Source: Clonostachys chloroleuca (taxonomy: Eukaryota > Ascomycota > Sordariomycetes > Hypocreales > Bionectriaceae). Taken from it: a stretch of 64,000 nucleotides of DNA. Positions 42,136-62,864 of the stretch are shown one piece after another. The stretch is taken from assembly GCA_037952775.1 (NCBI GenBank), contig JBANAY010000004.1:4960001-5024000 (forward strand). Reading direction: 5' to 3'. Made by a program: the position numbers and the translations under genes. How positions within the stretch are numbered: position 1 is the stretch's first letter; every line of letters begins with the position of its first letter. The notes under the pieces were generated by a model, which saw only the letters and a program-made list of their open reading frames with translations, was not told where the DNA came from and searched no databases.

Positions 42136-43805
42136 ATGAGCGTGGAGAAAAAGCCACGCGTACCATGTATGATGGTAGAGTCCCTTCGGGGACCCAACTA
42201 TGCATTTCAGAGGGAATTACCTGACGTGACCGACGTGATCGCGCGACGCAGTTACATGGACACGTTTATCCGCCATATGATGCCGATCACCAACAACCAG
42301 ATAAGGGATTATCGGATACATATGACACTTCTGTATCTTCGAACCCTCATCAGGCGCCGCTTCCGGTGGGTAGCAGAAGACTGGTTGAGCTGCATGATCG
42401 ACCTGTATACATGGAGCGCCATTTGTAAGTGCTATCCACAAACCTCACTCTACCGAAAATAAACTAACATCTCCCACCAATTGACGCACATCCGCTTATG
42501 AAGGTGTGCCCAGAATTCCCATGGGAGCTCATAACCCATGATAGGTCATCGGCTCCATCGCGGATGTACAAGGACTTCAGGGGATTCCACTGTTTGGGCA
42601 ATGACCCGTGTCAAGACTTGAAGGACAGCGAGGTGGCCGATAGGGAGCTGGACTTGGCGTTGGGAGGTGACATAGATGAGCACCGAGACGAGCTCCTGAA
42701 GAATTGGAAGTCCAAGTTCGAGGCATTTGGTGAGGATCCAGTTGAGCTCGCACGGCCCAGCTTGAACCTGGAAGCTTCTGTATTCCGTCCTGACGAGACG
42801 CACTCCATGTCTGCGCCATCTGGCAGCACGGCATTGGTCCACAATGCCCCTGGGGCTGGATACACTGGCCAACAAGGAGACATAAGCGGACGGCTAATAG
42901 CTGATACGCAGGGCGGTACAAGCCCCGGTGCACAGCAGAGCAGCTGCCCAAGCGTCAACCTAGAGGTAATTCAACCTGCTCTGGCCAACTTCTGGGAGGA
43001 AATACGGGAGTATGAGAGCTGGCAATCGTTGGCATCGGGAATGATCGTGTCCCCCTGGGAGATCAAACTTCCTCACGAGAGAGTCACGAGTATGCTCCTC
43101 CCAAATCACAAGACCATAGAGACAGAGGGAGAGGAGGGAATCATGGTCCACGTCGTTAGGCGAGGCATGGGCGGCCACACTTTGACGTTGGCCATTGAAA
43201 TCTCCCATTGCGCGAACACCCACTTCTCTCCTGTCCAAGAGGAGCTCGTCAGAGGTCTGTGGAAGTGTATTCTGCGGTGGATCATCACTATCGCGGAAGG
43301 CGCTATGATCAAGTGGGAAAATTGGAGGTTTCTATGGAAACATAAACTCTACCATCCGATGAAAGAATGGGTGAATGGTAAAGATACATGGGATGAATTC
43401 TGCTACGCAATGGATACGATCCACCGGGACGTCGCTCAGAGAGGCAGGGAGAACAACCTGTCCATGCCCCAGGCGTTTCAGCAGTATGAGGATACTCTGG
43501 TTGTTGCAGGGCATACGATGGAGCAGATAAACCGTCGACTGCAAGAAGTGATCTCATCGTCGATCCCGCCAAATTATAAAGATTCGGATGTATTAACACT
43601 GATTGAGAAACTCCGTTCTGTTGGGATAGACCTTTTCACTGGAGCCCCACTGGAGGCACATGATGATTTCTTCATGTTTGCCATGTCCACCATTTATATC
43701 TTTGCTCAAATGAATTTAGAGAGGGAGGGTGACGGGACAAGGAAGTTCTCAGTAGCCAGAATGATCTATGCCGGAATCCTTTCATTTGCCGACTTGGGCA
43801 AGTAG
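42136..43805 (+). CDS. Group A island protein, copy 1 (Trp-rich C-terminal domain)
   Basis: I do not recognise the family. Exon 1 (42136-42424) encodes the N-terminal module with RRSYMDTFIRHMMP and ends W-S-A-I-[C] at a T|GTAAGT donor, the same place and phase as in the copies at 47788 and 60726. Exon 2 is within the frame 42498-43805 and begins EFPWELI, matching FPWKIP in the 60726 gene. A Ser/Gly-rich linker follows, then the shared domain: WKCILRW, GAMIKWENWRFLW and LYHPMKEW (43254-43365), SMPQAFQQYEDTL (43463-43501) and a final hydrophobic helix (FFMFAMSTIYIFAQMN). The joint is imperfect: the AAG acceptor at 42503 breaks frame, and the CAG at 42513 keeps frame but creates TAA. Alternatively exon 2 is translated alone from the ATG at 42498 (435 aa). 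No signal peptide or obvious membrane segment. Confidence 0.65.
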
Positions 43806-45234
43806 GCAGCAGTGCCTTGTGGTAGTGCATAGTCTCGGAGGAAATTATGTGAAGTGACTGGGAATATGTAGTATTTCATAGGTATACCTTTGTTTTGTGT
43901 GCGACCAGATCGAGCGGTCGGCTGTCACTCTTTTTCCTACTGGGTTTTTTAACGAGGGCAGCGGTCTTAACCCACCGAAATGTAAATCATTTGTATCATT
44001 ATTTGTATCATTATTTAGCTTACCTCTTTGTTATGGGGAAGGTGTAATACATGCAGCTCACGCCCATTTTCGGGTTAACGAAGACTTCCCGTCTCGATCA
44101 GCAATAATCGTCCATCAATTGATTTGCTGTTTTCTTACAGTTACACCCTGTTGGAAATAACGGTAGGTTCATGTTACACGAGCATGGAAAAGGAACAAGC
44201 CCCCACGAAACGAATTATTAAGTAGATGATCAGAACATAGTCAATCACCTAGCCTTTACTGCGGTTGATATTATCAATCAAAGAATACTAATAATATATT
44301 GGCATGTCCCTCACAGGACAAATGATCACAGTGAAGCTAACCTGCCCATCTACTACTGCCTATATACGTCAGGCTTTCAATAGTTTGGTGGCCATTACAT
44401 AGTTTAATGGGGCCATTACATAGCTCATCATAAAGGCCATACATAGTTCAGTAGGGCTATTGCATTTCTTAGAGGCCAGCACAAAAGTAATTAGTTTGAG
44501 GAGGTCCCCTTCAATGAATAATCAGTCAGATATAACATCTTTGCCGGGGTACGGTCAAAGCGAGGGGTCAAAGCTCCACTAACGCAACATTAACAAAATA
44601 AACAAACAGTGCGACATGGCTCCTTCTTCAACTCGGCGGACAAGCCGCACGCGTCAATGAAAGCGCGATGTATGCTCACCCGTAAATGCTGGCAAGCACC
44701 AGATTTAACGGGCCATACTTGAAGCCATTGAGGTATCAGAGGATAAGTGCTTTGCCGCACTTTGTGTTGCGGCGCGTGGCTCTCGATACCTTGACATGCT
44801 CCCATTTGAAACTTTTGGTTTGCTAGTAAGCCTCAAGTTTCAATAGTGTGTCCCTTAAGCGCAAGCCTCTACGAGCTCAGCTTGAACAGCCTGCCCATAT
44901 GAACCTCATCATTACGGCTTGGTCTGTCTCTTCTCGAAATTTTGTTTCTGATACGAAACCCAAAGAAGATTCTCGAACTTGGCCTAGGATCAATTCTCGA
45001 TCCAATTTCGACTACCAGCCAATGCGGGCATGACAACACCCGCTACAGAGGCGAATTCACTTATTCATAAAATGCAAGAATAGTTAGGATCAAGATATAT
45101 GCAATACAAAACCTCACTCCTTACATTTGCCTGGATCCTACTTAATGTAACCCTCTATACAGTAAGCCTCCCTTCCCCAGAAAAGTGCCATACACGCATA
45201 TTCCGACCCGCACATACTATTGACTCGGAAAATA
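43806..45234. other. Intergenic, AT-rich, with degenerate GGCCATTACATAG repeats
   Basis: About 1.4 kb without a supported gene. A direct duplication of TTTGTATCATTA occurs near 43990-44015. Confidence 0.5.
44387..44480. repeat. Degenerate ~22-nt tandem repeat (GGCCATTACATAG-type)
   Basis: Three to four decayed tandem units beginning GGCCATTACATAG, with about 22-nt spacing. The GGCCATT core and the period recall the minisatellite at 46.8-47.1 kb, suggesting a common origin. Confidence 0.6.
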
Positions 45235-46491
45235 TTATTGCTGGCGAAGGCAATCATCACTCCTTTCCGTGGCGACAGGGAAACAACTCAGAGGGTTCGG
45301 ATTATCGTCACCTGCTTGCTCCTGAGGCATACTTAAATCTAGCATGTCTGAATCCGGGTTTACGAGGTCAGCAAGCGCGCTGTGAATCTGGGGAGCTGGC
45401 GGGTTTGCCATGACAGGTGATGTGTTCACTGAAGTTTGCAGCACGTTCCCCGGGGCTTGGGTTGCGTTTGCGGACCTTTGTGTGTCAACCTGTATACCGG
45501 TGTTGTCCTTAGCCTGTGGAGGCGATGGAACGACAGAAGGTTGTCCATCCCTCGGATCGAATGTCCAGGGCGGGATCAACGTCTTTGTGTCGTCTTTGTT
45601 CTTGCGGGGATGTACCGCGTGCATTGCGACCCTAACTGCTCCTATGTCAGATTTTGACTGTAGATAACTTACGATGGCCTCCATATCTCGGAGCTTGGGG
45701 TCATTGATGACTAGATCCACTACCGGCTGGCCGGTCTCTGGATCCTGCTCGACTGAGACGATGTTGGTATGGGGGCCTCCGCCGGGATTGGAGTTGATCG
45801 ACGTCAGCGTCGATGTCCCGTCGCTATGCTGCTGTTCATATATGTGAATTTTGGGCACCTGCGTAGCCCTGAGAGGGAGCTGGGTGCCATCACTGAATGT
45901 AACCATGTTCGTGCCTGCAGGACTGGTAGATGGATCCCGCGACTGGGAGTTACCTGGCCTTCTGGGCTTTGGGGATCTTGATTGGTGTCGCCTGCGATAT
46001 GGCGACTGGTCTCTGCGTCGTGGTGGAGAACGGCGACGGTCAGACCGGCGATTGTCAGATCTACACCTCCCATCGCACCGATATGGCGCGCAAGAGCACG
46101 GCGGTGGTGGTGGGGGTGGTGGGGGAGGCATCGCGTACGGGCCGGGATAATACCCTTGTTGGCTCCATTGATAACATCCTTGTTGGCTCCATTGTAGTTG
46201 CGGGGTGTAACCGTACCATCCGTATGGATAGGAGCGATTTGCCCTCCAATACTCCGGGTCGGCGTGGCTTTGACGGTCTCCGTTGTAACGGTCCCTGTCA
46301 TAGTCCCTGGAGCGTGATCTGCCTCGGTTCATTGATCGAGAACGATCTCTTCGGGGCGATCGTGAACTCCTGCCGCTTCTGCGGCTACCACGGCGACTTT
46401 GATCGCTTCCTTGGCTTCGATTGCCATGGCGGTTGCCATTACCATTTCCATTACCATTGCCACTTGGCTGAGCACTGTTTCTTCCTGCCAT
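45235..46491 (-). CDS. RS-rich, proline-rich protein of the island, function unknown
   Basis: Frame of 418 aa from the ATG at 46491 (a GTG directly before it was not used). Residues 1-80 are Asn/Gly then Arg/Ser-rich (RRSGRSSRSPRRDRSRS and more), residues about 85-125 are Tyr/Gln/Trp-rich with a repeated QWSQQG-[CY]-Y unit, and a run of ten prolines and a CSCAPYRCDGRCRS patch follow, then a second RS/RRD segment (to about 190). The C-terminal half is less biased and includes VTFSDGTQLPLRATQVPKIH and PVVDLVINDPKLRDMEAI. RS and Tyr/Gly-rich tracts are typical of nuclear RNA-processing or condensate-forming proteins; any such role is inference. A GTAAGT donor-like site lies after DMEAI (about 45672), but no acceptor gives a normal intron in frame. 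No homology with groups A-C was seen. Confidence 0.65.
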   Translation of the reverse strand: MAGRNSAQPSGNGNGNGNGNRHGNRSQGSDQSRRGSRRSGRSSRSPRRDRSRSMNRGRSRSRDYDRDRYNGDRQSHADPEYWRANRSYPYGWYGYTPQLQWSQQGCYQWSQQGYYPGPYAMPPPPPPPPPPCSCAPYRCDGRCRSDNRRSDRRRSPPRRRDQSPYRRRHQSRSPKPRRPGNSQSRDPSTSPAGTNMVTFSDGTQLPLRATQVPKIHIYEQQHSDGTSTLTSINSNPGGGPHTNIVSVEQDPETGQPVVDLVINDPKLRDMEAIVSYLQSKSDIGAVRVAMHAVHPRKNKDDTKTLIPPWTFDPRDGQPSVVPSPPQAKDNTGIQVDTQRSANATQAPGNVLQTSVNTSPVMANPPAPQIHSALADLVNPDSDMLDLSMPQEQAGDDNPNPLSCFPVATERSDDCLRQQ

Positions 46492-46639
46492 CACGGATGA
46501 TGTTGCTGGTGCTGGTGCTGGTTGGTGCTGGTGTTGTTGTTGTTTGTGATGGTGCAGCTTCTGAAAAGGAATTAATTTTTGCGTGCCTCAAAACACAGGG
46601 AAACTTTGGTGGGGCCACTGTCAGGCGATTTACCCTAAG

Positions 46640-46765
46640 GCGGGAGCGATTAACTACTTGGAGTGATTAACTAGTGGGAGCGATTAACTAGATGGTGGGT
46701 GAGAGTGATGAACTACCTACCTACCTAGGTGGGAGTGATGGACTTATTTGGTCGGAGTGATGAAT
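46640..46765. repeat. Degenerate GATTAACTA repeat block
   Basis: Several copies of GGGAG[CT]GATTAACTA and GAGTGATGAACTA-like units directly beside the 22-nt minisatellite. They are decayed and of variable spacing. Confidence 0.6.
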
Positions 46766-46789
46766 TACTTCCGTAGGGCTGGTCAGGCT

Positions 46790-47092
46790 GGAGGTGATTC
46801 CTTTGTTTAGTGGGGGTGATTCCTTTGTTTAGTAGAGATGATTCCTTTGTTTGGTGGGGATGATTCCTTTGTTTGGTGGGGATGATTCCTTTGTTTGGTG
46901 GGGATGATTCCTTTGTTTGGTGGGGATGATTCCTTTGGTGTAGGCCATTCCTATTTAATGGGGCCATTCCCTCGTTTGGTGAAGGCCATTCCCTCGTTTG
47001 GTGAAGGCCATTCCCTCGTTTGGTGTAGGCCATTCCCTCGTTTGGTAGAGGCCATTCCCTCGTTTGGTGGAGGCCATTCCTTGGTGGGGCCA
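46790..47092. repeat. Two adjacent 22-nt minisatellites
   Basis: About seven tandem units of type 1 (GATGATTCCTTTGTTTGGTG core, 46790-46940), then about six of type 2 (GGCCATTCCCTCGTTTGGTG core, 46943-47080). Both have a 22-nt period and share ATTCC-n-GTTTGGTG, so type 2 probably derived from type 1 or the reverse. Units within each block are nearly identical, suggesting recent expansion. Long open frames here on the minus strand (46725-47093) are an artefact of the repeat. Confidence 0.92.
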
Positions 47093-47787
47093 TTAGTTAG
47101 ATAGCGGAGGCCATCAGTTAGGGAGGTAGCGTGGTGAGGGTTATTATCTTATCTGCTTGTTTAAGCGAAGGCCATGGCAAATGTAGCTTGGTGTGCAGGC
47201 CATTACAGACCTACCTAGGTAGTTTGCTGCGGGAGGCCATTATATAACATCGCGCCCCTCTTGACGCTCCAGGCGAAGGTTATCTAGACTACCTTCTGTA
47301 GCGTGTCGGATGCCTTCGACGCCATCGCAAGGGCATAGTTGCCCAACTGGAACATAGGGTCACAACTCCATCAAGATTTAACTGAGATGGTTGCTTTCAG
47401 GAGATATCGATGTAGTAGCTGATTGAAGCAAACTGGATGAAAATAGAGGAAGAGAGCTTTTTCATTCCAAATTAGAAGTGAGAGCCCCCTTGGAACTGAG
47501 TGAGTCGTGGACGAAAATGGTGCGGTCGATTAGTTGAGAACAGTGAAGGCCGTCGCTTAGTTAGGGAGAGGTCGTCAATTAAGTTGCGGGGAGCCGTTGG
47601 TTACGTTCACTGTAGCTTGGTAGAGGTCGTTAATTTGTGCAGGCCCGTTATCTGGGAGGGGAAAAGTGAGAGGCGCCAAACTCAACCTTTCACCACACAG
47701 CCACATGCGCACGCGTGAAACACACACACATCGACAAATACAACGCTCGATCCTTTTTTTCTTGATTGTGTTTTTGGTAGACCAGCT
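47093..47787. other. Decayed repeat flank and leader of the next gene copy
   Basis: Scattered GGCCATTA, GGCCATCAGTTAG and GGTCGTTAATT-like motifs continue to about 47660 with decreasing regularity. From 47690 a CA-rich stretch (CACACACA) precedes the 47788 start, as before the 42136 gene. Confidence 0.45.
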
Positions 47788-48375
47788 ATGGCGTATCTAC
47801 TGGACCACAAGCAAATGGTATCCCTCCGGGGAAAAGAGTATACATTTAACCTGGAAGGTGAATTGCCAGACTGGCGTGATGAACCTTCCCGGCAACTGTA
47901 CATAGATTCATTCATCTTATTCGCGCTGCCAGTCGATTCCGACACAGTTAGAAAATACCGACTCCAAGGGATGAGAACCGTGCTCGAGCACTTGACGTGG
48001 AATAGATTCCAATGGTTTTATTCCGCTATGTTCAGCATTAAGGTTGACCATGTTATGTGGAATCAGATTTGTAAGTTTTACCCACTTCGCCAAGAGAAAT
48101 AATTTCGTTCAATTGCTAACAGGTAATTTTCAGTCGCTACACATATACCGCCAGGTCAGCCGAAGCCATAGTTCCCCTGGATAATGCCGCAATTCTCTCC
48201 CCTAAGGGATCTACTATCCTTTATCTATAAGGCATGGAGGACTGGGATGGGCCTAACCTGCGGTTACCCATCATCCGATAATGAGATATCGACAGAACTC
48301 ACGTTATCGAATATCTCAAGGATATCAACCGAAGAGAGGGTACACAGTTTCTTGAAATATAAGCGGCTGGAGTAA
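47788..48375 (+). pseudogene. Group A island gene, broken copy (5' part)
   Basis: Exon 1 from the ATG at 47788 encodes RQLYIDSFILFALP and ends M-W-N-Q-I at a T|GTAAGT donor (intron about 48072-48133), the same position and phase as in the two other group A copies. After the AG at about 48133 the frame reads on to KP, then TAG, then FPWIMPQFSP and IYKAWRTGMGL (48170-48240). These match FPWKIP and AYRAWRQVLGL of the 60726 gene. A second disruption near 48282 shifts the frame: in the next frame VIEYLKDINRREGTQFLEI and, after TAA at 48360, AAGVM continue the same alignment. It is thus a decayed paralogue running into the stop-interrupted segment downstream. Confidence 0.72.
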
Positions 48376-49655
48376 TGTTATATAACCCGGGGGTTATACC
48401 CGCCAAGCAGAAGCAGACGCAACCCGTAGAAATCCAAGAAGACGCTCTATAGCCACCCAAGCTGAGTAACGGGTCAGACTCCCAAGGAAGAGAAACAGCG
48501 CAGGCAGCCGTGGCGAGATCGCCAGCGCTATCGAACGAAACCCTCCTCTTGAGTGGCCTCATAAGGCCCAATAATTTGGAGGAGTCAGTAACCCTGGAAA
48601 GTGAGGCTAACACACTGTTTACGGTGTTAAGGCATATTGCCCACGTCCGGGCCAAGCAGAGCGGCCCTACAGCCGATATTTTTGCTGCACTCAAGGGGAT
48701 GTACGAGAGAAACCCCATCCTAAGGTACATATAAGAGCGACCACCAGCAGCACCATCAAGAGATGAAGTTGCACGGGATCTGCGTTTGGAATCTGGGCTC
48801 TCCCATGAGACGGTTCTCGATCTTTTACAGTACGAGACTATGGTGTTAACTATCTGGACACTCCCAGACTTCTACCTACTAGCCGGTCCGGTCTCCATGC
48901 GCGCACGACGCGAAGGGGGTTTCCGTATAGAGGAGGAAGGAAAACCAGCGACCTCGTTAACTAATTGCGCCTTTCTTGAATGGGACGGGTCTGGGTTATT
49001 AGAAGGGATTATTGACGCCCTGATAATACCTACTGCTAACGCGCATGGAATATACAGGCCGTATCTATCAGCCTTACCTAGGATCTTTCAGGTAGCTATT
49101 GGAAATGTCAAGGTGGATATAAGACCTCTAAGACAACTCGATATATAGAGAGGTGACTTCACGACATCAGGAGTCTACTACCACCAGCACTACACACAAC
49201 ACTACCTACTCGTAGGTGTGGTTTCTATCAGCTCCGACGGTAGCTACGCGAGATCTTTCTGTGACCCGATTGGATACAGGAGAGACATAGGCTTGGCCCG
49301 AGGGCAGAAAGATCGATTAACCGTTATCATAAACAAGGAAACTTCGGGTCTGCTCATATACGCCGCATCAGCGCTATAGATTACAAAACACTCTGTAGCC
49401 CAAATGGATCAGCCGTTGCCGCCAAAACCGCTAGAGCTGTACGCCATACTCAATCAATTTGAGCCGTACCTTAACGGAACGGCCATGCTTAGTGATAATG
49501 AGTTTGAGCCGGTCCCCGGTAAAACACCCACCGCCACGCAACCAGAGGATCATACTACACAGCACCAAGGCGGCAGCACACCTGTCCATACGGACGGGGA
49601 GCAGGCTGACAGGCCGAACAAAAAGCGAAAGACACCACACAACGAGGCCAACTAG
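48375..49655 (+). pseudogene. Stop-interrupted coding frame, 427 codons, possibly group B-like
   Basis: One reading frame stays open for 427 codons from the ATG at 48375 to the final stop (49653-49655), except for four internal stops: TAG 48450, TAA 48732, TAG 49146 and TAG 49377. Another in-frame TAA lies just upstream at 48360. Every one is preceded by a CTA or ATA codon, so all five read [AC]TATA[AG]. Between stops the translation looks like real protein (for example TIWTLPDFYLLAG, IYRPYLSALPRIFQVAIGN, SGVYYHQHYTQHYLLVG and PLPPKPLELYAILNQFEPYL). The RP...FQVAI stretch weakly resembles RP...LQFAI of group B. Cytosine-to-thymine change in CAR (Gln) codons would explain the stops; ordinary pseudogene decay is the simplest reading. 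Confidence 0.5.
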
Positions 49656-50824
49656 AGCCATTGAGTACCTCCTATCCCACTTACCCGAACCTAAAGCCCA
49701 TAGACCAGGGCCTCGTAATCCAGGAGGGCCCATCCTGACAGGGCCCAAGTCGCAGACACGGAAGGAGTCAAGTGCAAGTCGAAGGAGCTTCCACGGCGAG
49801 ACAAAGCCTAAGTAGAGCACACACGTGCAAGAAAAGGAAATGTATACTAGCATGGCTTGAAGGCGGTCTTTGATAGGCGAGTTAGTTTGTTCCGGTTTCC
49901 CAGGCGAAAATTGGATCTATTGTCTCTCTGCTTCTTCCTTCAAATATTCAAATTTGCTTCAAGCTTTTTACAATTTTGCCCTGTGTGTGTTATAGGCTCT
50001 CCTCTATCGCCAGATGTGCGTAGTAAGCTCTAAGATGAAAAAGTAAGCGCCCTTTAAATAATTTCGCCTTGGTAGGAGAACTCCAGCTGTAGCGATGCTT
50101 TTGTCAATTCAGCTTAGGTTCTTAAAATGAAAAATTGCTAAAATGTGAGAATTGATCTTAGTTCTCTCCTTTAAATTTTGATAATTTTGAGAGAATGGGC
50201 CTTCAGTGGACTCTCTTGAGGTTTCAACGTAGTTTGGAAGCACTTTTGAGGAACATAATGTGTCTGTTAACTGTCATCCTGGCAGAGACGTCGTAGTTGA
50301 ACAATGTCATGCTATCATTTTGCTCTATTAACCAGATAGTTACCAATAACCCCAAGGCAATTTAACATGAAACGAATAAAAAGGGTCCTATCGCCATAAG
50401 CTCCCAAATGGATGCCAACCCCGAGTTAAGGCAACTTCTGTCTACTTCTGGAAGTGTCTGTCCGTGTAGAACACTATCATCTACCTTGAGCTCCTATCCC
50501 GTGGGATCGGTGGAGCGTCAACACCAAGCTCAACCCTGGCACTGTCCTACTGAGGTCTGCTTACCACAATTAGGGCAACGTCCATCCAGACGAAGCAAAG
50601 ACGTTGTTCTTACGCAAGCCCGCTGTACATTCTACTGGGGTAGCAATACGGCATGGCTGAGCATGAAACACCAGATGGACAGCTCATTTCGAGGAGAATT
50701 ACGTTGGTCTTGGAAGGGGCATGACGTTTGGGGAAGCTTGGCAGAGGTACATTGGACGGGGAGATCACAGGCAAAATTGGACATGCCAAATAGTGGATGG
50801 CAGAAACTTTGATTCAATTTCCCC
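49656..50824. other. Intergenic with a dispersed repeat copy
   Basis: About 1.2 kb, AT-rich in the middle (49900-50260). The open frame 50408-50812 has no recognisable domain and lies over the dispersed repeat, so it was not called as a gene. Confidence 0.5.
50275..50545. repeat. Dispersed repeat, second copy of the 31.4 kb element
   Basis: Related to 31435-31650 over its length, with an extra ~100 nt in the middle here. The best-preserved part is the 3' end (CTCCTATCCCGTGGGATCGG and the next 45 nt). The two copies are 19 kb apart in the same orientation. Confidence 0.65.
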
Positions 50825-52326
50825 TCAGCATTTTCTGGGCCATAACGAACCGGTTATTGTGAGCTCGTAGCCCAAATCTCGAGCAAGAGTGTTTGCAACA
50901 CTGTCACCCCATAGTTCCTTGCCAGTTACGAGCAACAAATCAATTGCCGTAATTCCAAAATGAAAGTATCGGCCCCTCTGCCTGACATTCTGCACCCTGT
51001 CGGAGATGTTGATCTGCTTTTTGATCACATCCTTCATCTCGTGTGCCTGAGATTCGTTTAGCCTGCACATGGTTTATACAAGGTGCGTCGTGAGTTAGCC
51101 ATATCGTTGTAATGTTTCGTCCATTGCCGGACCTCATGAACCTTATGAGTAGCGGCGTGTTCGCGTGCCTTCTCGGAATCTAGGAAGATTATCACATGGT
51201 CACTGTCTGTTGTCATCGGAGGGAAGGCCTTTGAGAACCAGACCCGTGTCCATGTTGTCAGTGGTATGGGCGACCCCATCCATAAAGTGGTTGCCCATTG
51301 CACTAGCATCAGCCATACCTCTAACAGGTTGGTACGGTTCTCTTTGCCCTTGGCTACCTGGACGCAGATCTCGACACAGGACCTTTCCAGTTGTTTGGAC
51401 TGCAGGCGGATGTCTTCAAGTCCACCAGCTTTCTCTAAAGTGAGCTCAGCGAGCCCGTTCAGAATGTCCATTCCCGGCAGTCTCGCGACAATGAGAGGGA
51501 CAAAGACTGCGAAAATGCTGGACACGTAGCCCTGGCCGTCCCATAATTGGGCTTGCCTGAGTTCACTCCATGCTTTGGTGAGATTCTCACTCCATCTATC
51601 ATGCTGTTGGCCAAGGGAACCCTCGAGCTTTGTAGTGAGAGGCGTTGACGCCTTTTTTGGGGTTGCACCCCTCGCTCGAGCCTGGCTACCTCTAGGTAGC
51701 CTAGGAGCATCCTGCCAGCTTTTGTCTGGAGGATTAGTGCTAACCGGCCGCGTTCGCTGATTTCCTGGTTGGGATGACAATTGGTTGGACTGGCCCTGAA
51801 TCAGTCCTGGTGCATAGGCTTGTTGTACCAAAAGGGACTGATCTTGAGCCTGCACAAGCCGTTGCGCCAAACCCTGGGTTGCATTATAGGGAACGAGACC
51901 GTTGCCTGTGAAATTTGCAACACTGGTAAGATCATTGCTGACAGGTGGGCTCATGTCAATATATGCATTGACTAAGCCTGCCATGTTGAGTCTATTCAAG
52001 AGATTGCTATTAGACAGATTGATAGCTGTCTGTTGGAAGAGCGGATTCGCCCCAGGTATTCCAAGACCAAGCGTCCCAACGGGCGTTGGTGTGGGTAGAT
52101 GTGCCAAAGACTGAGTATCGCCTTGTACATTTTCATTCCGGTGGAATTTTCCACCTCGAGATCCTCCGTAGCCTCCACTGGATCGTGTCTGGCTGCGGCC
52201 TCGATTCTCGTCTTCCTGTGACTGGGCAACGAGTCTTTCGAATTCTTCGAGATTTTCTTTGCGCCTTTTTGACGATTCTTCGTCATTATTATCGTTTGGT
52301 CTTTTTGAAGGATTTGGTCCTGACAT
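50825..52326 (-). CDS. Group C island protein with the shared Trp-rich domain
   Basis: Predicted exons 52326-51142 and 51046-50825, joined by a 95-nt intron (AAG|GTTCAT donor, TCTCAG acceptor, CTAAC branch), giving 468 aa. Without splicing the frame ends at 51058. I favour splicing because the second exon encodes IDLLLVTGKELWGDSVANTL, which aligns with the C-terminal hydrophobic helix of group A proteins. N-terminus: lysine-rich KRPNDNNDEESSKRRKEN (nuclear-signal-like) and an SGGYGGSRGGKF patch. The middle is Gln/Asn/Pro-rich and disordered. The C-terminal domain (about 51320-51225) keeps the group A spacing: W-x3-[LV]-x-W, G-x2-I-x4-W, then W and PPM. It lacks the exon 1 module of group A. 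Function unknown. Confidence 0.62.
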
Positions 52327-52537
52327 TGTAAACTATTCTTATGGGAAGAATGAAGTTTGATGTGTCTTGTGTGTGTTTGGTTGGTTGGCTGATGGGTTGG
52401 TTGTTGATTGAGAGGAAAAGTTGCAAATTTCAGATCAAAAGTGAGATTAGTTTTCGAGTTTTGCGCGTCACATCATAACGCGACTGCCGCCAACAATCGA
52501 TAATGCAGGTTGCGGCATTCTTTAGCCTGACACCTCA

Positions 52538-52600
52538 GGCAGAGAGGGTTGGCCATCAGGCAGAGAGGGTTGGCCATCAGGCAGAGAGGGTTGGCCATCA
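52538..52600. repeat. Perfect triplicate of a 21-nt unit
   Basis: Three exact head-to-tail copies (52538-52558, 52559-52579, 52580-52600) of a unit containing GAGAGGGTTGGCCATCA, just upstream of the group C gene start. Exactness suggests recent amplification. Confidence 0.92.
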
Positions 52601-52689
52601 AAACCACCTCACTCTTCCTTCGCCCTGTCTCATCTGCCTTTTGTTCAATTCACTTGTTTCTCTGCCTCCCTAAGACGCGCCACGCTTAC

Positions 52690-53400
52690 TAAATCCTTGA
52701 AACATGGAAAAAGACAACTAGAAACAATCAAAGAGCGCGGCACAAGTGTAAACATGGGAATAGCTTCCTTAAGAGATACAACTCTTGTTAGTACAGCAAT
52801 CGAAATCGCAGCGAAGACAGCCGAACATAAAGATAAACCACACGTGGGACATGTAGCTAGCGTTTTCTTGATACCCTAAAAGAATTTCATCAAGAACCTG
52901 TTCAAGTGCATATTAAAGTCCACCACCACTGTTTCTAAAGGTCTTGGGATCAAATGGGAAACTTGGAGAGTCCTCTTAAGATAAAACTTCTACCCCCGAT
53001 GGGATGCTCGCTGACTGAACATGATATGTGGGGCGAACTGCAACACACTGGGGAAGTGATCAGAGAACAAGTCAAAGGGTAATGGTCGAGGAGGAAACTT
53101 CTATGCCCAAGGCGATACAACATTGCGAAGAGTCCATGGCTATCGCCGAACCCCCTGTTTTTGTTGAAAGACTGCATCTCAAGATTAAAACTGAAGTTTC
53201 TCCCTTGGACACAGCTCTCAGTTCATCAATGTAGTGAGAATGAGCTACGGTCCCAACTACAACATTCATCGCCCGCTGCCAGTCTCGCAGACACAAACCG
53301 AAACCTCGTCATTGCAGCCATAGAAATGGCTCTTAACGAATGCAAGTTGCCAACCAAACGATCTTGGTTCCTCGCCGACCAGAAGTCAAGGGTATGAAGT
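52690..53400 (+). pseudogene. Relic of a group A island gene (C-terminal half)
   Basis: Translations in shifting frames retain, in order, the landmarks of the group A C-terminal half: LETIKERGTSVNMGIASLRD and then STAIEIAAKTAEH (about 52715-52840; compare ETEGEEGIMVHVV and LAIEISHCANTH at 43113-43216), GIKWETWRVLL (52946-52978), LTEHDMWGEL (53010-53040), TSMPKAIQHCEESMAIA (53099-53149) and NLVIAAIEMALNECK (53302-53346). Stops and frame changes occur between them and no N-terminal exon is visible, so it cannot encode a full protein. It adds a fourth group A-type copy within 20 kb. Confidence 0.72.
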
Positions 53401-54126
53401 CGCATCGGTATGGCATCGTGCTGCTCCACGGCAGTGAGGATTAGGAAGATGAAGAGGAATATCTCAACAAGTTGGCCGCCAGAAGCAGGTGTGAGTAGTC
53501 GGCGGGTTTCCACAGTGTGTTGGGATAAAATAGCTACATTAGAAATGGAGAACCAACAATTGTGGGAGAGAACCAACACTTAGAGGAAGACATCCAGGAG
53601 TTGGGGGGAAACCTTCTAACGCGGCAATATGAATTTCCCAGTGCCTTAATACCTCTTCAAAACGAGGATACTAGTTGAATATCAGGTTGGAGGCGATGTC
53701 GCATCTGATATCTGATCATTATCTGCGAGACATGACATAAGGCTAACTCCATTCCACAGCAAGAAGGGATTTGACTCTAGGATGGCAATTAAAGTACGAA
53801 AGGTGAGGGTCGTAGAGAAGAGGCTCTAAGGTGTGTAGTAAGGTTCAAACAAAATACAGGCTGGCAAAAATGTCTTGAGAGTATGAGTTTGACATCTAGT
53901 ATCATGCAAATATGGCTTGCCTAAATTTTGACCCCCTTCTTAACATCCTCTTCCCAATTAAATCAAATCATGTACGCCTCTGGTAGATATCAAACTGGAT
54001 CCACCTCTTTTCTATGACTGTGATATCAAAAAACTATATGTCTGTGATGCATGCATAAATGGTACCAACGTATCAATCGCAAAATATGCTTATAACAAAC
54101 GTCCCGACAAGGGGGGATCAACTGTT
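53401..54126. other. Intergenic, right edge of the main island
   Basis: About 0.7 kb with no supported feature; 3' region of the antiporter gene from about 53900. AT-rich. Confidence 0.45.
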
Positions 54127-56987
54127 TCACTTTTTCTCACGTTGGGGCTCGGCGAAGCGGATCCTAGCCGGTGTGGCTCGTCCCCTCTCTTCCTCATCGC
54201 TGTCTTCATCGGCCATTCCAAGTGCGGCCTCTCGCCGTCTGCGTTCTGCAGGCGTTTCGTAGTCGTCGCCATCATCGTCGTCGTCGCCCTGTGTGGCCAA
54301 TACGGCCAGTCTTCGTTTTCGCTCTGCGGCGCTTTCGCCCTGCTCCTCAGATGGTTGCGTCTTGTGAGGTGATGTTTTAGGCGGTGAAGCTGGGGCCTTG
54401 GCACCCGTGCTGGGCTTGGAAACCTTAACTGCAGTCTTTGGCTGCTCGGGTACCCCTTCCTTAGCAATGCTCTTAACCTCTTGGGAGGCCGTAGAGTTGT
54501 TCACCACTTCTCGGCGAGTGTTGGCATCAAGGTTCTGGACCTCACGAATGAAGTCCTCCTTCGTCATGCGCTTGCCAACACCTCCAATGGTGAAGCGGAT
54601 CTTACGGTCATCATCGGCATCATCGTCCTGGCTCTCCTGGGAAGCAACATTCTTGCGGCGGCCAGCACCACCGAGGATGCTCGTCCAGCCACTGCCTCCA
54701 GCGGCTGGGGCGCTGGTTCCGGCTTGGGCAGCTTGTGCGGAAGATTCACCCTCCGCCTTGGCAAGACCGCCCAAACCCATATACTTGAGACTGGTGTTGA
54801 AGACATCCGCCTGGCCCTCTGGCTTCTGCGAGGGAATCTCGTACGTCTTGACGACTTCACCATCCTCGTCCTCAACAATAATCTAAAGATTTCACCTGTA
54901 TTAGCACCCATCAAATCTCTGTCGTGGTCATTCGCTCAACTTACGGTATTGCCAAACTGATAGGCTCGTGCTGGCTCGTGCTTTCGAGATTTGCCCTTTT
55001 CTTTTCGCTTTTCCTTCTCAGTTGAGTACATCTCACTGACCTTCTGTCTCATACCACCCAAAGACCATGGTTTGTTGGTGGATCGCAAAGCCGCAGTAAC
55101 GGGAGATGGTAAGTCTGTTTCATCCTCCCGTGGACTTGGCTGAACAGCCAGCACCTCTCCATCCTGATTTTCAAACACCAGATCGCTGCCCTCTTCGTAC
55201 ACTTGGATGCGGGGTGTGGTGACGGCTGGTTCTGGGGACTTGATGCTCTCTTCAGAGCCTTCAGCCTTGATCTCATCGATGCTATCGCTAGCGGGCGAGC
55301 TGTCAACGGTGTCCTTGGGCTCTTGGTCTTTCTGGGCATCAGACCCGGTTGTGGTGGTTTCTCGGCTTGGGAAGATGGCTGATTGGCTGATGGGACCACC
55401 TGCGCCGTCGTCTTTCTTCGACTTGCGCCGCCTGGAGACAAGCGAAGAAGCTCGGCTTCCTTGACGACTATGGTCCTCTCTGCGGCGTCGGAGGAAGCCC
55501 TCGGGTGGTGCGAGAGTGTCACCAGTGGGATCTGTCTCCTTTTCGTCAAATGAAGCCTCAGACATCTTACCCTGAGATCGTGACATTGAGGAAATTCGGG
55601 GGAGTCTGTTCATCCAAGAAGGTCCGTCCTCGGGAGCTGCGGTGTAGGACATGGTCAGGGTGAGCGTGTTGATTCTCTTGCCCAGCGTAAACACTGCAAT
55701 GGAGGAGCCGTGCACGAGAATAGAGGATATAACCATGAAAGTTGTTATGGGCCAAACGAGGTAGATCAAGTCAAACTCCGGTGCATCGGGTTCCGGAAGA
55801 ACTGCCAGCGGTACTGGCTCTCCGGTCTCTAGCTCTGCTCGTGCGAGAATAGCAATGAAGATGGCACCGACACCAATAGGCCCAAAGTGGCCGGCGAAGA
55901 GAGCCTCACGCCAAGTTCTGATATCGGGTATTAGTGGTTTCAAGGCTAACATGATGGGAATGCGCCGGAAGAAGATGACGAAAACGGATATTACAACAAG
56001 GCGCCAAACGGTAAGACCCATAACACCGCTATTGTACTGTTCCCAGGGAATAATAGTTCCGAGATAGACAAAGTACGTCAAGTTAATCAACAAATCAATG
56101 ACGTTGGAAACATGGGACTCCTCGGTCTTCTCTCCGAACCACCCATCGTTAGAGAAGCCGACTCCAGCTGCAAAGCCAACGAGCAAGTCGTCCACGCCCA
56201 GGATACTACCAGAGCCGGCACAGAAGAGAGCAACAACAAAATAAAAGACGAGAAAGCTCTCCCGATCAATCAAGTCGTGCTTCTCTGCGTACTTGATGCC
56301 ATGGCGGGCGATATAGCCAATGAGGAAACCATATACAGCTCCAAACACACACTCGTACAGGATGGTGTAACAGACAAAGTGGAGAGTGACCTCGCCAGCA
56401 TTACGATGGTACTGGATCAGATAAATAGACAGGTAGATGAAGGGGAATGCCATGCCGTCGTTGCATCCAGACTCAGCGGAGAGCAAATCTCGGAGATGCT
56501 TCGGCACCCGTTTGGCGAATTTACCCTTTCCGACGACGGAGGAGGCAAGAACGGGATCTGTGGCCGTGACACACGCGGCAACCACCAAACTATCCAACCA
56601 GTTAAAGGCGGGGATCATCCACCAGATGAACAGGCTCACGATGAGCCATCCGAAGGTCATGACGGGGATGAGGAGGTAGATGACGGATCGCCAGTGACGC
56701 TCCATATAGAACTTGGGCAATTCTACACCGACGGCAAAGCATTGGACGACCAGAACGATACGGGAAAATTCGATGGTGACGATGTCGGTGGACCCCCAGT
56801 TATTGGGGTTGATGAGGTTGGCGGCATGAGGACCGAAGATGACTCCGCACAGGGTGGCGACAGTAGCTTCACCAATGTACATGCGCTCCTTAATGAAGGA
56901 GGAACAGAGCATGAACAGAGTGGTGAAGCCGCCGAGGATAATGTACACCAAGTGCGGGTCCGTGATGCTGAGGTGACTCCAAGCCAT
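54127..56987 (-). CDS. nha1: Na+/H+ antiporter, Nha1/Sod2 type
   Basis: Plasma-membrane cation/H+ exchanger that expels Na+ (and often K+) for salt and pH tolerance (family knowledge). Exon 1 is 56987-54945, with a 62-nt intron (54944-54883, GTAAGT to TTTAG), and exon 2 is 54882-54127; 932 aa. The N-terminal about 450 residues hold 11-12 membrane helices of the CPA1 exchanger fold, with ACVTATDPVLASSVV and the catalytic-region SAESGCNDGMAFPF, the expected fungal Nha1 signature. The rest is a long cytosolic tail, rich in Ser/Glu/Lys, ending RFAEPQREKK, as in fungal Nha1 proteins where the tail is regulatory. The ATG at 56987 gives the usual MAWSHLSITDPHLVYI start. The tail contains many basic and acidic tracts but no other domain. 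Confidence 0.92.
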
Positions 56988-59533
56988 GTTGGGCGAGTGA
57001 ATGGGTAAGACACTCTAGATTGGGAGTCGCACAGCACCTCGACCGCGAACAGCCCGGGCCAGAGCTGCGGTTGTTAATTGAACGATACCAACCACGAAAC
57101 GGGATCGATAGGAGAACCGGCCCAGTCCGACACCGAAGGCAAGGGATATATGCCTCTAGTGTTTCTGCACCTGCGGCGATACCAATTGGGCCCAATTGGG
57201 AAAAGAGCGTTGGAAGAGGGAAAAAGGTAGCGATCCGGGTTTTCACGGGAGGCTCAAGGACCGCGAGTCAGCTCAGCAACGTGCGCAGCGGACAGGCTTT
57301 CGACAGACGACGGCCGGAGTGTCCTCTTCATTCCCGTGGACGCGAGGATTGACTCAGCACGAGGGAACAAAGGGAGAGGTTGCTGGAGATCAGGCAAGGA
57401 AGGGAATGGAAGGGTCGGGACGAAGGAGAAAAACAAAGAGCTTGACGAATCTGCCCCCACACTATGATGAAACACGGGACCGAAAACAAGCTAAAGCTCA
57501 ACGTCAGGGTGCCTTATCTCGCTCTGGACGATACCTAATAAGAGAATAAGGTAGGTAGGCTTTATTGGATTGGTCCTCGTCACCCTGCATGGGCTACGGG
57601 TGGGGGAATACACTCAAGGACAAGGACCGGAGCTAATATCGAACCGCCGCGCGTTGCGACACCGGGGCAGCGTCACAGCAGAGTAGACGGCAGGCGCGCG
57701 TGCGTGGGCGTGGGAAGGAAGCACCAGACAGACATTTCGTCAATGAGGCGCTGTTGAGATGCCTCAAAAAATCCACAGCAAGAGCAGGGGCGAGGCAGGG
57801 ATATCGCAGGGGGCCCCACGGCTCATCGCGTCCGCTGATTCGCCCAGCCAGCACGCTACGTGCCGAATATACCGATGTGGGCCCCTTGGCTCGCTGCTTT
57901 TGCGCTGCTCAACGCCACACAACGGCTATTCGGATCCAGACTCTACTCGACCTGCGAAGGCCTGGTGTCGTATTGAGTCGATGGACATTGGCCGATCGCC
58001 TGTGAGCTGCACGGTTTATATGCAGAGTTTACTACTTTCATTCAGATTGGCCTTCCGAATACCGTCCTCGGCGCAGACGACGAGGGGACAGACGAGACTG
58101 AGACACACGTGGGCAGCAAACATGTTCCCGCCTGTTGCATTGCCTTGTCTCGTCTCGTCTCGCCCTGTGTATGCGAGTCTCACGTCGCCTGGAGTCAGCG
58201 TCACCCAGAGACGATGGAACCCTCCGTCTTCCCCCTCTGGAGTTTCAACCAACCCGGCCCAGACGTAAGGGATCGTTATGCTTAAACTTTTGGTTTTTAT
58301 GCTTAATCTGAACCGCCCTGTCAGACTTTTCGGTCTATTTAAGTCTGCATGTGTTGGCCTCTCCGTGACCTCCCAATATCAGTCTGTGACAAAGAAAACC
58401 GCAGGCGGCCTCCCAGCTGACCGGGGTGGGGGTCGGATTGGGCGAAGAGGCTAAAAGCAGCCGGTCCAGAATCTCTCCATGCAGCGCCAGAGCCATGGGT
58501 CCCCCAGTTGATCAAATCGCGGCATCCAACGTCGAGACTCAACTCGCCGCCATAGTGGTCTTAAGTGGCTCCTCAATGATTGCATTGCTGTGAGATTGCC
58601 GTCCCCACCTCAGCTCACACCAACTACCCACATCAAATCGGTTCCTCGGCTCGTTGCCAAGTCTTGACCTCGATTCCCTGTCTTCGTCCAAATCGAGGCG
58701 AGGATGATGATGCAGGTTGGATCTTTCATATTGAAAAGCTTCATCTCTACGCACACGGATATGGCGAAACTGCTATGTGAATGCTTGTACTAAGTGTTTG
58801 GTCATGTCTAGCTTCAGCCCTATATCTTGTGCCAAGCCCAACCCGCCAAGAAGCGCATCTGCCAAGTCCTGCCAGCCAAGAAGGCCCTGCATTGATCGGA
58901 GATGTTGTCTTGGCTGTTTAACACTTATATCCAATGGTACAAGTGAACACGCGAAAATGGAACATGCACATAATGATACCTTCTTAAGGGTGAGAATAGG
59001 AAGAGTGACCACATTGAACCCTGCCTAGGCAATCATATTTCACATCTCCAGGTGGCCAGAGCAGACTCAGCACAACCCACCACCGTACAGTAACATCTTA
59101 TTTCTTTTAACCTTCACAGCCATCCGTACAAACTACACCTGCCCAGTATCAACCATATCACATCTAGAGTGGCATGCGACCATTGAACATTATATTTACT
59201 TCCCGGTCACGGCCATCATGCATACCATTCCATGGAAACCCCTGCGCGGATGTGCTCAATCGCTACTATTACACCGTGCGCTAGCACTCTCATGAGGTTT
59301 GGCCACCTACGGAGCTCAACACCCTCGAATGCAGCATTGATGAATAGCAGCCTGCGTAGAGAGCACGGTGAAAGTGTTGAGCGGGAGGTGCGAGGGTAGT
59401 TTAGACCATCTTGGCCAGTGGAAAGCGCCCTGACCCCTCACCGTCATTCTCTAAGTTCCTTTGAGCAAGAAGGTAGCTGGAGAAGGTAGCAAACATATAA
59501 CAATGATCAGGTTCTCCAGCCTGGCCTCAGGCC
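56988..59533. other. Intergenic, nha1 promoter and leader, no gene supported
   Basis: About 2.5 kb. Open frames near 57196-57549 and 57759-58268 lack domain or splice evidence. A short GTCTC tandem run is at about 58147. Long upstream regions are common for ion-transporter genes, but no element was identified. Confidence 0.5.
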
Positions 59534-59911
59534 TTACATATTTCCTTTGGCTTTTTCCATTGTTTGCCCACGTGCCTTGTATAAATTCTCGGTTAGGTCT
59601 TGGGCTATTTTGCTGACTGTCAGTCTGCCCTTCCCAAAACCAACGAGTGCCATCTTCTCGTTGAAGATCTTGAGCCTTTTGGCTTCGGCACTCTCCTTTG
59701 GTGACTCATACGACCGTTTCTTCTCCAGATCTGACATTGATTCTGAGTAGTGTTTGGTAGGGGTAAATTGGGTCGCATTTGATGCAATGCTAAGGTGTGT
59801 CGTGAACGCTACGTGCTGTTGGGGTCCGAGAGATTTTGCGAATCGCGAGCAAGTAGGCCGATCACCTTGGTAGATCCAACGGCCTTTTATCCTGGAGTTA
59901 GAGATTCTCAT
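59534..59911 (-). CDS. Hypothetical small basic protein (uncertain)
   Basis: Frame of about 125 aa from the ATG at 59911, open further upstream to a TTG codon (59962). A TTTTTCGCAG acceptor-like site lies about 20 nt beyond that, so an upstream exon is possible. The C-terminal half is Lys/Glu-rich and helical (KRSYESPKESAEAKRLKIF, then LTVSKIAQDLTENLY), which looks like real coding sequence. I do not recognise it, and no neighbour explains it. It could also be a chance frame. Confidence 0.33.
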   Translation of the reverse strand: MRISNSRIKGRWIYQGDRPTCSRFAKSLGPQQHVAFTTHLSIASNATQFTPTKHYSESMSDLEKKRSYESPKESAEAKRLKIFNEKMALVGFGKGRLTVSKIAQDLTENLYKARGQTMEKAKGNM

Positions 59912-60725
59912 TGATGTGTCTTCCAGAATTTCCGAGGTCCTTGTATCAAAGGTCTCGCTCAAACTGTGCCTAGGACTCGGTCAGCTGCGAAAAATCACAT
60001 TTCAAGGTCAGACGAGAAAAACGGAGAATAGATAGAAAAGGATCGACCCGGGTGAAAGCCGTTGCGTTGAGCACGATCCCACCCACCCAGGCTTTGCTTC
60101 TTAGAGCAGCCTTAGCTCGATAGAGAAACAAAGAAAGATAAAAGGGGGAAGAGAGAGACAAGAGGACCAGTTCTCATCGTACGAACGAGTGAAATCAAAG
60201 CTAATCTCAAGGCGCACCGTCGAAAAAACAACCCCCATGCCTTTTCTGGGGCGTACGCCAGAAGTAGTACATGGAATATTACACCAGGTTGGTCGCGATG
60301 CTGCACATGAGAGGGAAGCAACGTACCTGCGGGAAAGAAAACCAGTGTCATCCAGAGTGGACCAGAATGGGAATCTGGGGAGAGATATTAGAATGGAAAG
60401 ATGGGGAGACAAAAAAATGGCAAGGTGTATGTGTGTGGAAGAGTTTGACTTGTGCAGGTGTGCTCCCACTTGGCAGCCTTCAGCTGCGCGTCACTTGTCC
60501 TTCGCCCACGTTACTCTGCCTCAGGCAACTACTAATCAACCTTCTCTGGATCAGAAACGCGCACCAATTTTGGTTTTATGATAACAGAAGAGGGAATCCT
60601 TAGAGGGAAAAACAACCCATCACTTCTCGCTTATTCTATATCCTACCAACGCCAACCATTGCATCTAATCAACACACAGCCAAAACAAAAATCAGCATAT
60701 TTGCTATGTAATAAAAAAACGAACA
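59912..60725. other. Intergenic between a minus frame and the group A gene
   Basis: About 0.8 kb. AT-rich leader just before 60726 (a run of seven A at 60713). Open frames here are short and unconvincing. Confidence 0.45.
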
Positions 60726-62864
60726 ATGCGTGATACCAGTCACCTGAAGCTTCTTCCCCTACGAAATGAGAGCAGGTCCTGGTTCCGGTTCCCAGGAGGG
60801 ATACCAGATGGGTCAAACGAACATTGGCGTCGTGTCTATATGGACACGTTCATATTCTCCGTACTTGGAAAACCCAATGAAATCATTGGCTTCTGCCGAG
60901 GAACAGCAGCCGTAGAGGTTTTCCAAGACTTGGCTACGAGGCGCTATCGAGAACGTGCTTCTGACAGTGTTGAGATGCAAATCGATCAACGGACGTGGAA
61001 CAAACTCTGCAAGTTCTGAAAATTTCCATCACAATGACACTGACCCTAGACTACTCTAGATGCGAGAATGATGCTAACATTCACCACAGTCACGCAGTCT
61101 CAAGGGCAGCTTTTCCAAGGGCCAATTCCTACATTTCCCTGGAAGATTCCCGACCACCAGATCCTTAGCCCATCATCAATTGCATACCGAGCTTGGAGGC
61201 AGGTTTTGGGCTTGCCCTGCAACGTAGTCTTTGGTATCGATCCCGGAGAGTCTGAGTTGACAAAGCGCGTACTAAAGACCTATACCGTTGAAGATGGAAG
61301 AGAGATACTCCATGCGGCGGGCCATGCCAAATATTTCATGGGGTTTGGAGGTGAAATGAAAGACAACAAGTTTTGGCATCAAGCATGGCACCAAGATTGG
61401 TTCAAAGCCGCAATGATGTCTTCCAAAAACCGATCAAGTAGCACGCCCAAGCCGTCAACGGTAGAGAACCCATTCTCAGAGATAAAGAACCCATTCGCAC
61501 CAGTCAGTTCTGCGCCACCGTTGGGTGAGAAAAGAAAGATTTGGCCAACTGAGGACGAGTCAAAGGGCGGTCTTAAGATGCCCAAAACTTCCGCCTCTAC
61601 GGCCAAGCCCGCCTCCTTGGCTCCAATACTTAACCAGACGGGCACCACCTCAGCAGTCTCGTCCACTGTGCCTTCTGCAGCGCATGGCCTTTCTGCTACC
61701 AACTCGAACTCCAAGGCCAAAGAACCTGGAATAGTTCAAAGATATCAAGTTATGGGCTTGGATGAACCATCAGTGAGCGAGAACTCCCAGGTAGGAGGGT
61801 TGTTTGGACCACCACCATCCACCGTTGCGAGCGTGGGAGCATCACCAAAATCCGCCGTTACGAGCATGGGAGGGATATTTAGACTACCACCATCCACCGC
61901 TACGAGCGTGGGAGGGCTTTTTGGAGTACCATCATCCACCGTTGCGAGCGTAGGAGGGCTGTTTGGACCACCAGCACCCACCGTTGCGAGCGTAGGAGGA
62001 CTATTTGGACCACCAACATCCACCGTCACGAGCGAGGATGCACATCCCCCAACTCCTCCATTTGAAGATGGGACTGGCACTCGAAAGCTGCCAAATTTCA
62101 GTGATAGTCCGCCGATACACCAGAGTCTCGTGAACTGCTGGGAAACTCTATCAAAATCCAAATATTGGATCAAATCGCGACTGGTAACCGCTGCTTTCGA
62201 AATCAGGCTGCCAGACGCCAAGATCACAAACCAGCTATTGCAACCTGGTCCGATTATCACGACCAGACATTCAGATCTGTTCCAAGTTGAGCGTCGCGGT
62301 GTTACTGACGACGATCTCTGCCTCGGGATCAACTTATGTCGACATTTCACCCGTGAGCTCTCCGAGGCCCAGATGGATATCCTGAGGGATACCTGGAGAT
62401 GCATCGTCAGATGGGTGACTGTTGTATGCCAGGGCGCTGGCATCGAGTTTACGAAATGGTGCTTCCTATGGTCAAGGAACCTGTGCCCTCTGATGGATAA
62501 TCGCGTTTCGGATCAACAGACATGGGTATGGCTGGAACGAAACGAGAAGACTACTTTCCTCGAGTTAGTCAAAAGTTTGCCTCGAGAATCCGACTGCCAA
62601 TTCGGAAAAGAAATTTCAGAGACGATATCAGAGATCATAAACGAGCACAAGAGCTCTGATGACAATGAAGGGCTGTTGCAAGCAGTGAGCTCGGCGGTAC
62701 TCGCAGAGAGAGCCGTTTTCAATCCTCGGAGTCGCCTCTTGCAGGCTCTTATGATTGCTGTCTACGCCATAGCTACAAGCAAGTTTGAGACAGACTCATT
62801 CTCTAAAGCTCACCGTGTCTATATTTTGATCCGGGAGGGGCATCCCACCCTACATATCACGTAG
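60726..62864 (+). CDS. Group A island protein, copy 2, with GLFG repeats
   Basis: Exons 60726-61008 and 61090-62864 join to 685 aa. The intron (81 nt) has a GC donor (T|GCAAGT) and a CACAG acceptor. Its position and phase match the GTAAGT introns of the copies at 42136 and 47788, which is why it is called. Exon 1 carries RRVYMDTFIFSVLG; exon 2 starts TQSQGQLF and TFPWKIP. Then comes a Lys/Ser/Pro-rich linker, a 14-residue repeat with VGGLFGPP-type cores (61791-62034), and the shared C-terminal domain: WRCIVRW, GAGIEFTKWCFLW and LCPLMD (62387-62495), ending with a hydrophobic helix (LLQALMIAVYAIAT). No signal peptide. GLFG cores resemble FG nucleoporins, but the proline-rich context may be coincidental. 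Function unknown. This copy has no visible disruption. Confidence 0.78.
61791..62034 (+). repeat. In-frame 42-nt minisatellite encoding VGGLFGPP repeats
   Basis: About six coding repeats of 14 aa (one shortened to 11), variants VGGLFG, MGGIFR and VGASPK, inside the group A gene. The unit is 42 nt and stays in frame. Confidence 0.85.

Follow-up and report, generated by a model that had tools for sequence, protein, structure and literature searches.

Gene families confined to particular taxa are poorly understood in fungal genomes, where many lineage-restricted orphan families are found. The closest relatives of the proteins considered here carry no product name: they are P0002 from Clonostachys rosea (527 amino acids) and P0003 from C. 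byssicola (489 amino acids), both uncharacterised, P0005 from C. rhizophaga (504 amino acids) and P0006 from C. solani (427 amino acids). Here we took a stretch of 64,000 nucleotides from C. chloroleuca (C4:4960001-5024000, hereafter the window, from a 59.4 Mb genome in four contigs) and examined a cluster of related genes and broken copies within it. We refer to the Trp-rich C-terminal domain found in the cluster as W, to an N-terminal module of ~100 amino acids as N and to the C-terminus of C. solani P0006 as Y; window genes are designated by coordinate (Table 1). Homology between the copies, a shared gene structure, local clustering and broken copies are all observed. Our reading, to which we give a probability of about 0.6, is that these loci represent a real two-module (N and W) family, undescribed as far as our searches go and with named relatives in Clonostachys only, which turns over fast, duplicating, swapping modules and decaying, and whose products have a binding or assembly role.

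An earlier note on this DNA had proposed that the 42136, 60726 and 51061 (minus strand) genes share a C-terminal block with nearly fixed tryptophan spacing. BLASTP, shuffles, a profile and the motif itself all bear out the block, and the Trp pattern holds, but two intervals had to be corrected: 6 residues rather than 8-9 separate W from G, and the gap between the last W and P is 5-6 residues instead of 6-7. The corrected form, W-x3-[LV]-x-W-x6-G-x2-I-x4-W-x3-W-x5,6-P, is common to the three genes, which are the only exact matches (3/2434) among the open frames of at least 40 amino acids in the window plus 11 further stretches (190,461 residues); with the spacing first proposed there were 0 matches. 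The 42136 and 60726 proteins match with a BLASTP E value of 4e-21 over 141 columns (30% identity in the W domain) and 51061 matches 60726 with E 1e-6 over 132 columns, while 42136 against 51061 is weak alone (E 7e-4, 35 columns). When each of 10 pairs was shuffled 500 times, the true score was reached by 0/500 in nine pairs and by 1/500 for 42136 against 51061. A profile from which the 51061 gene had been left out recovered it with E 3.8e-6 and 22.1 bits, compared with 15.0 bits (E 0.0012) for the best of 2434 reversed decoys. The terminal hydrophobic helix aligns, as had been suggested, and C. rhizophaga P0005 carries the 51061-type alignment as far as this helix. A paralogue at C4:2.2257 Mb has retained all four Trp spacings and falls outside the strict motif. 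Across six aligned rows, two of which are close relatives, the invariant columns are L9, W13, W22, P39, W102, W108, G115, I118, W123, W127 and W145.

The W domain had been regarded as the only conserved unit, a view that is unsupported because the N-module is also conserved, being kept in 42136, 60726, 47719 and both genes at C4:2.23 Mb. This module consists of a first exon of ~100 amino acids followed by a phase-1 intron and then by a segment that we call FPW. Compared with P0002, the N-exon gave E values of 7.8e-46 for 42136, 1.6e-6 for 60726, 5.9e-12 for 47719 (open frame 47719-48099), 1.7e-24 for the C4:2.2257 Mb gene and 8.1e-7 for the C4:2.229 Mb gene. In all five copies the intron starts with G[TC]AAGT after the first base of the fourth codon from a Trp codon (GTAAGT in four, GCAAGT in 60726). 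The N-termini had been described as unrelated, and this applies to 51061, which does differ, but not to 42136 and 60726, which have homologous first exons and the intron start in common. The 60726 intron is of the GC-AG type, with position and phase as in 42136. Exon 2 of 42136 matches P0002 with E 1e-149, and its intron begins with GTAAGT and contains a CTAAC branch-like site, but where P0002 and P0003 place the join its last two bases are AA instead of AG, so this copy may be damaged or unusually spliced. The linker behind the N-module varies: it is GLFG-like in 60726, rich in S/G/A in 42136 and RS-rich in the C4:2.229 Mb gene, where an RS-rich tail follows the N-module and FPW segment and sequence comparison found no W domain.

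The 51061 gene represents a second arrangement. The N-module is absent from it, as P0002 matches its C-terminal part alone (P0002 residues 257-383), and in both this gene and P0005 a KRP/QN/RG N-terminus is joined to the W domain. In C. solani P0006 the 51061-type N-terminus (68% identity over 225 residues) is joined instead to Y, and no relation between Y and W was detected in a profile comparison. The module exchange thus documented for the 51061 type has as its C. solani partner one gene model. Relatives of Y lie at C3:10.70 Mb as pieces in two frames, one of them with a stop; a DDE-transposase-like frame, recognised by eye, is found ~2.6 kb from these pieces (L024 426-1757, C3:10.69 Mb). 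A second copy of the 51061-type N-terminus was not found in the genome within the reach of the search. The 51061 frame ends at 51058 and, because 76 further residues of P0005 match another frame (50828-51073), the window copy seems to have suffered a frameshift close to its end. Three identical 21-nt units lie upstream of the gene at 52538-52600, between it and the relic that follows.

Genome-wide queries with P0002, P0003, the 42498, 61068 and 51061 frames and exon 2 of the C4:2.229 Mb gene revealed at least eight loci, all such counts being lower bounds: six in the window (42136, 47719, 51061, 52853, 59395 and 60726) and two at C4:2.23 Mb. At least four copies had been claimed for this region, and the window indeed holds five stretches that carry W sequence, of which two are relics. 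The N-only pseudogene at 47.7-48.5 kb, the two paralogues at C4:2.23 Mb and the fifth W piece at 59395-59523(-) are additions to the earlier note. Exon 2 of the 47719 pseudogene has its nearest likeness in the RS-tailed, N-only gene at C4:2.229 Mb. The relic already pointed out near 52.85 kb is real: positions 52853-52999(+) match P0003 residues 291-339 (53% over 49 amino acids, E 1.4e-9) with two TAA codons inside, and the likeness runs on to ~53231 in other frames. The best piece of this relic scored 15.0 bits with a five-sequence profile, no better than the best decoy, and the claim therefore rests on the P0003 match. As to repeat-induced point mutation as a cause of decay, simple dinucleotide ratios (TpA/ApT 0.95 in the 47719 region, 1.0 at 49100-50800 and 0.68 in the window) did not single out the two relics. 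We dropped a row at C3:21.85 Mb (E 0.065) as chance and rejected 59537-59980(-) as kin of the 51061 N-terminus, the best BLASTP E value to that family being 0.055 (an overlapping frame against P0006).

Table 1. Coordinates of family genes, relics and gene models in the window
Feature	Position	Strand	Basis
42136 family gene, N-module + linker + W domain	42136..43805	+	homology to relatives
42136 gene model	exon 1 42136-42424, intron 42425-42480, exon 2 42481-43805	+	inferred from relatives
W domain of 42136 gene, 282-amino-acid piece folded	42957..43802	+	structure model
47719 pseudogene, N-module type	47719..48510	+	exon 1 in open frame 47719-48099; exon 2 piece 48133-48510, 4 stops
51061 gene, KRP/QN/RG-rich N-terminus (~residues 1-245) + W domain	50825..52326	-	BLASTP, profile
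Relic piece, Y type	52739..52858	+	P0006 residues 267-306, 63% over 40 residues; directly before W relic
W domain relic, several frames	52853..53231	+	best relative P0003 (C. byssicola)
Relic, W terminal helix region	59395..59523	-	P0003 437-479, 51%, E 3.3e-6
60726 family gene, GLFG-like linker	60726..62864	+	homology, intron position
60726 gene model	exon 1 60726-61008, intron 61009-61089, exon 2 61090-62864	+	inferred

Database searches support the view, also taken in the earlier note, that the family is undescribed, as far as these searches reach. With 12 protein entries compared against Pfam, the family proteins exceeded no cut-off; the names SKA2, LuxC, RUFY4, ANAPC5, DGOK and DUF4317 appeared far below it and were ignored. 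A search of the PDB by sequence gave 0 matches. Among 5.8 billion proteins, where a match requires shared 5-residue words, we recovered, besides the window's own protein, the four named Clonostachys proteins and P0001, a protein from another assembly that differs from 42498-43802 by 1 change in 435 residues; the named relatives, from C. rosea, C. byssicola, C. rhizophaga and C. solani, belong to Clonostachys only. No description of the family was found in the literature, which was searched by words for proteins without names.

Several other features accompany the cluster. The genes at 36519-38564(-) and 40091-41050(+) form a second family, with the block LHPxFxxRP...F..VLQF in both (E 2e-13) and no Pfam match; its relatives lie at C3:23.04 and 23.07 Mb, one of them near a gene that by eye is HET-domain-like. 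We considered W as kin of this family or of Y, and because the profile comparison gave no relation we claim no superfamily for the three. A protein rich in RS, GN and P is encoded at 45238-46494(-), with no Pfam family and no other match in the genome, and an array of a 22-nt unit at 46767-47089 separates its gene from the 47719 pseudogene. A 65-nt direct repeat occurs at 31579-31643 and 50482-50546, the copies being 88% identical and 18.9 kb apart.

For the W domain alone, an AlphaFold2 model from six sequences reached medium confidence (mean predicted local distance difference test score, pLDDT, 69.2; predicted template modelling score, pTM, 0.68). Strands at 22-24 and 29-37, a helix at 41-47 and strands at 55-59, 62-72 and 75-83 are followed by helices. 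W102 and W108 sit together on a long helix that spans 92-113; the turn that follows contains G115 and I118, and the helix beyond this turn carries W123 and W127. A structure search with this model gave no convincing fold relative; a goose adenovirus ORF14 row with probability 0.93 had template modelling (TM) scores of 0.22 and 0.25 and a root-mean-square deviation of 6.2 and was set aside. Full-length P0002 was modelled poorly (pLDDT 38.8), and the structure matches of that model were not used. The residues fixed in the six rows (Leu, Ile, Trp, Gly, Pro) suggest a structural core with no catalytic site. The usual cut-off for a membrane span is a 19-residue hydropathy of 1.6, and the highest values, 0.99 to 1.45 in six of seven sequences, argue against such a span in those six; P0005 reaches 1.72.

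From these features we would picture proteins built of an N-module, a fast-changing low-complexity linker and a W domain of, in the model, five short strands and then helices. The conserved Trp, Gly and Pro would make up the core of a domain for binding or self-assembly, and the RG, QN, GLFG or RS linkers may tune partners or condensate formation. The proteins would probably be neither secreted nor enzymes and would probably act in the nucleus or cytoplasm, and the family would evolve by local duplication, module exchange with other genes, and decay.

Some points weigh against this picture. The restriction to Clonostachys comes from a search by 5-residue words, so distant relatives elsewhere are possible; the W-domain model is of medium quality, with 36 of 282 residues under pLDDT 50; a membrane segment is possible for the 51061 type, since P0005 exceeds the hydropathy cut-off; and the C. 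solani swap could be a mis-joined annotation, P0006 being one gene model.

A tentative alternative is that we are dealing with an ordinary orphan family in a mundane lineage-specific role (for example regulatory or RNA-handling, in development or in mycoparasitism), changing by drift under weak constraint. The abundance of such families in fungi agrees with this, as do the RS, RG and GLFG linkers (their compositions were computed here), which are typical of RNA and nuclear proteins; this reading by itself, however, does not explain why domains are exchanged and dead copies are clustered. Module swap and adjacent broken copies also speak for conflict or allorecognition genes, in which self, non-self or a parasite is recognised inside the cell and rapid divergence, swaps and dead copies are the trace. 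To them may be added that the two long copies of the cluster are just 30% identical over 141 W-domain residues and that the HET-domain-like gene, identified by eye, has as a neighbour, at C3:23.07 Mb, a copy of the 36519-type family. We nevertheless consider such a role unlikely: no HET or NLR gene was recognised by eye in the window's lists of longer frames, no partner gene has come to light, and the single change in P0001, from one other assembly, means that no excess polymorphism is seen in that comparison. A shade less likely still is a more specific form, in which an intracellular conflict or self-recognition family would change its specificity by trading one whole C-terminal domain, W, for another, Y, while the N-terminus stays constant and the low-complexity linkers vary in type, all within one rearranging cluster.

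Remnants of a mobile element (Starship cargo, or proteins derived from a retroelement or virus) seem improbable. The several relics, the signs of rearrangement and the dispersed 65-nt repeat, of which one copy lies within the cluster, would suit them, but the spliceosomal intron start is conserved, and the loci, at least eight in 59 Mb, are all on C4. We also rejected a Starship captain near the cluster: the captain family, DUF3435 tyrosine recombinase (PF11917), has 39 match rows genome-wide, most of them on C3, and the nearest on C4 are at 3.83 and 6.31 Mb. Viral and prokaryotic scans gave 8 and 62 pattern matches, none confirmed by tblastn. Finally, a Trp spacing due to chance or convergence in the 51061 gene, with 42136 and 60726 alone related, might be suspected from its unrelated N-terminus and its weak match to 42136, but it is very improbable given the rarity of the fixed-spacing motif, the match to 60726, the profile recovery and the alignment of the C. 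rhizophaga relative up to the terminal helix.

Strains of C. rosea are used in biological control (PMC7896725), and gene-deletion work is therefore practical.

Compared with the proteins already in the databases, the two-module family reading finds its nearest counterparts in P0002 and P0003, which have the N-module, FPW segment, linker and W domain and are 53% and 47% identical to 42498-43802, respectively. In their gene models a single frame joins N-module to FPW segment, whereas the window gene has its AA-ending intron there. P0005 resembles 51061 in its KRP/QN/RG N-terminus and W domain (68% or 73%) and differs in that its frame reaches the terminal helix, where the window copy looks frameshifted. 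P0006 shares the N-terminal half of 51061 and departs from it at the C-terminus, Y, whose relatives include the relic at 52739-52858 besides the pieces on C3. Outside these four, the GLFG-like linker of 60726 resembles the nucleoporin FG repeat region PF13634 (E 2.7e-4, 22.1 bits, below the gathering score of 32.2 bits), a likeness of composition confined to the repeat linker. Lineage-restricted families are common in fungi, and this one shows its two-module make-up, its exchange and its decay with unusual clarity: two modules can be defined, the intron position is conserved, the linkers differ, one domain is exchanged and dead copies lie beside longer ones, which together give a clear view of how an orphan family changes.

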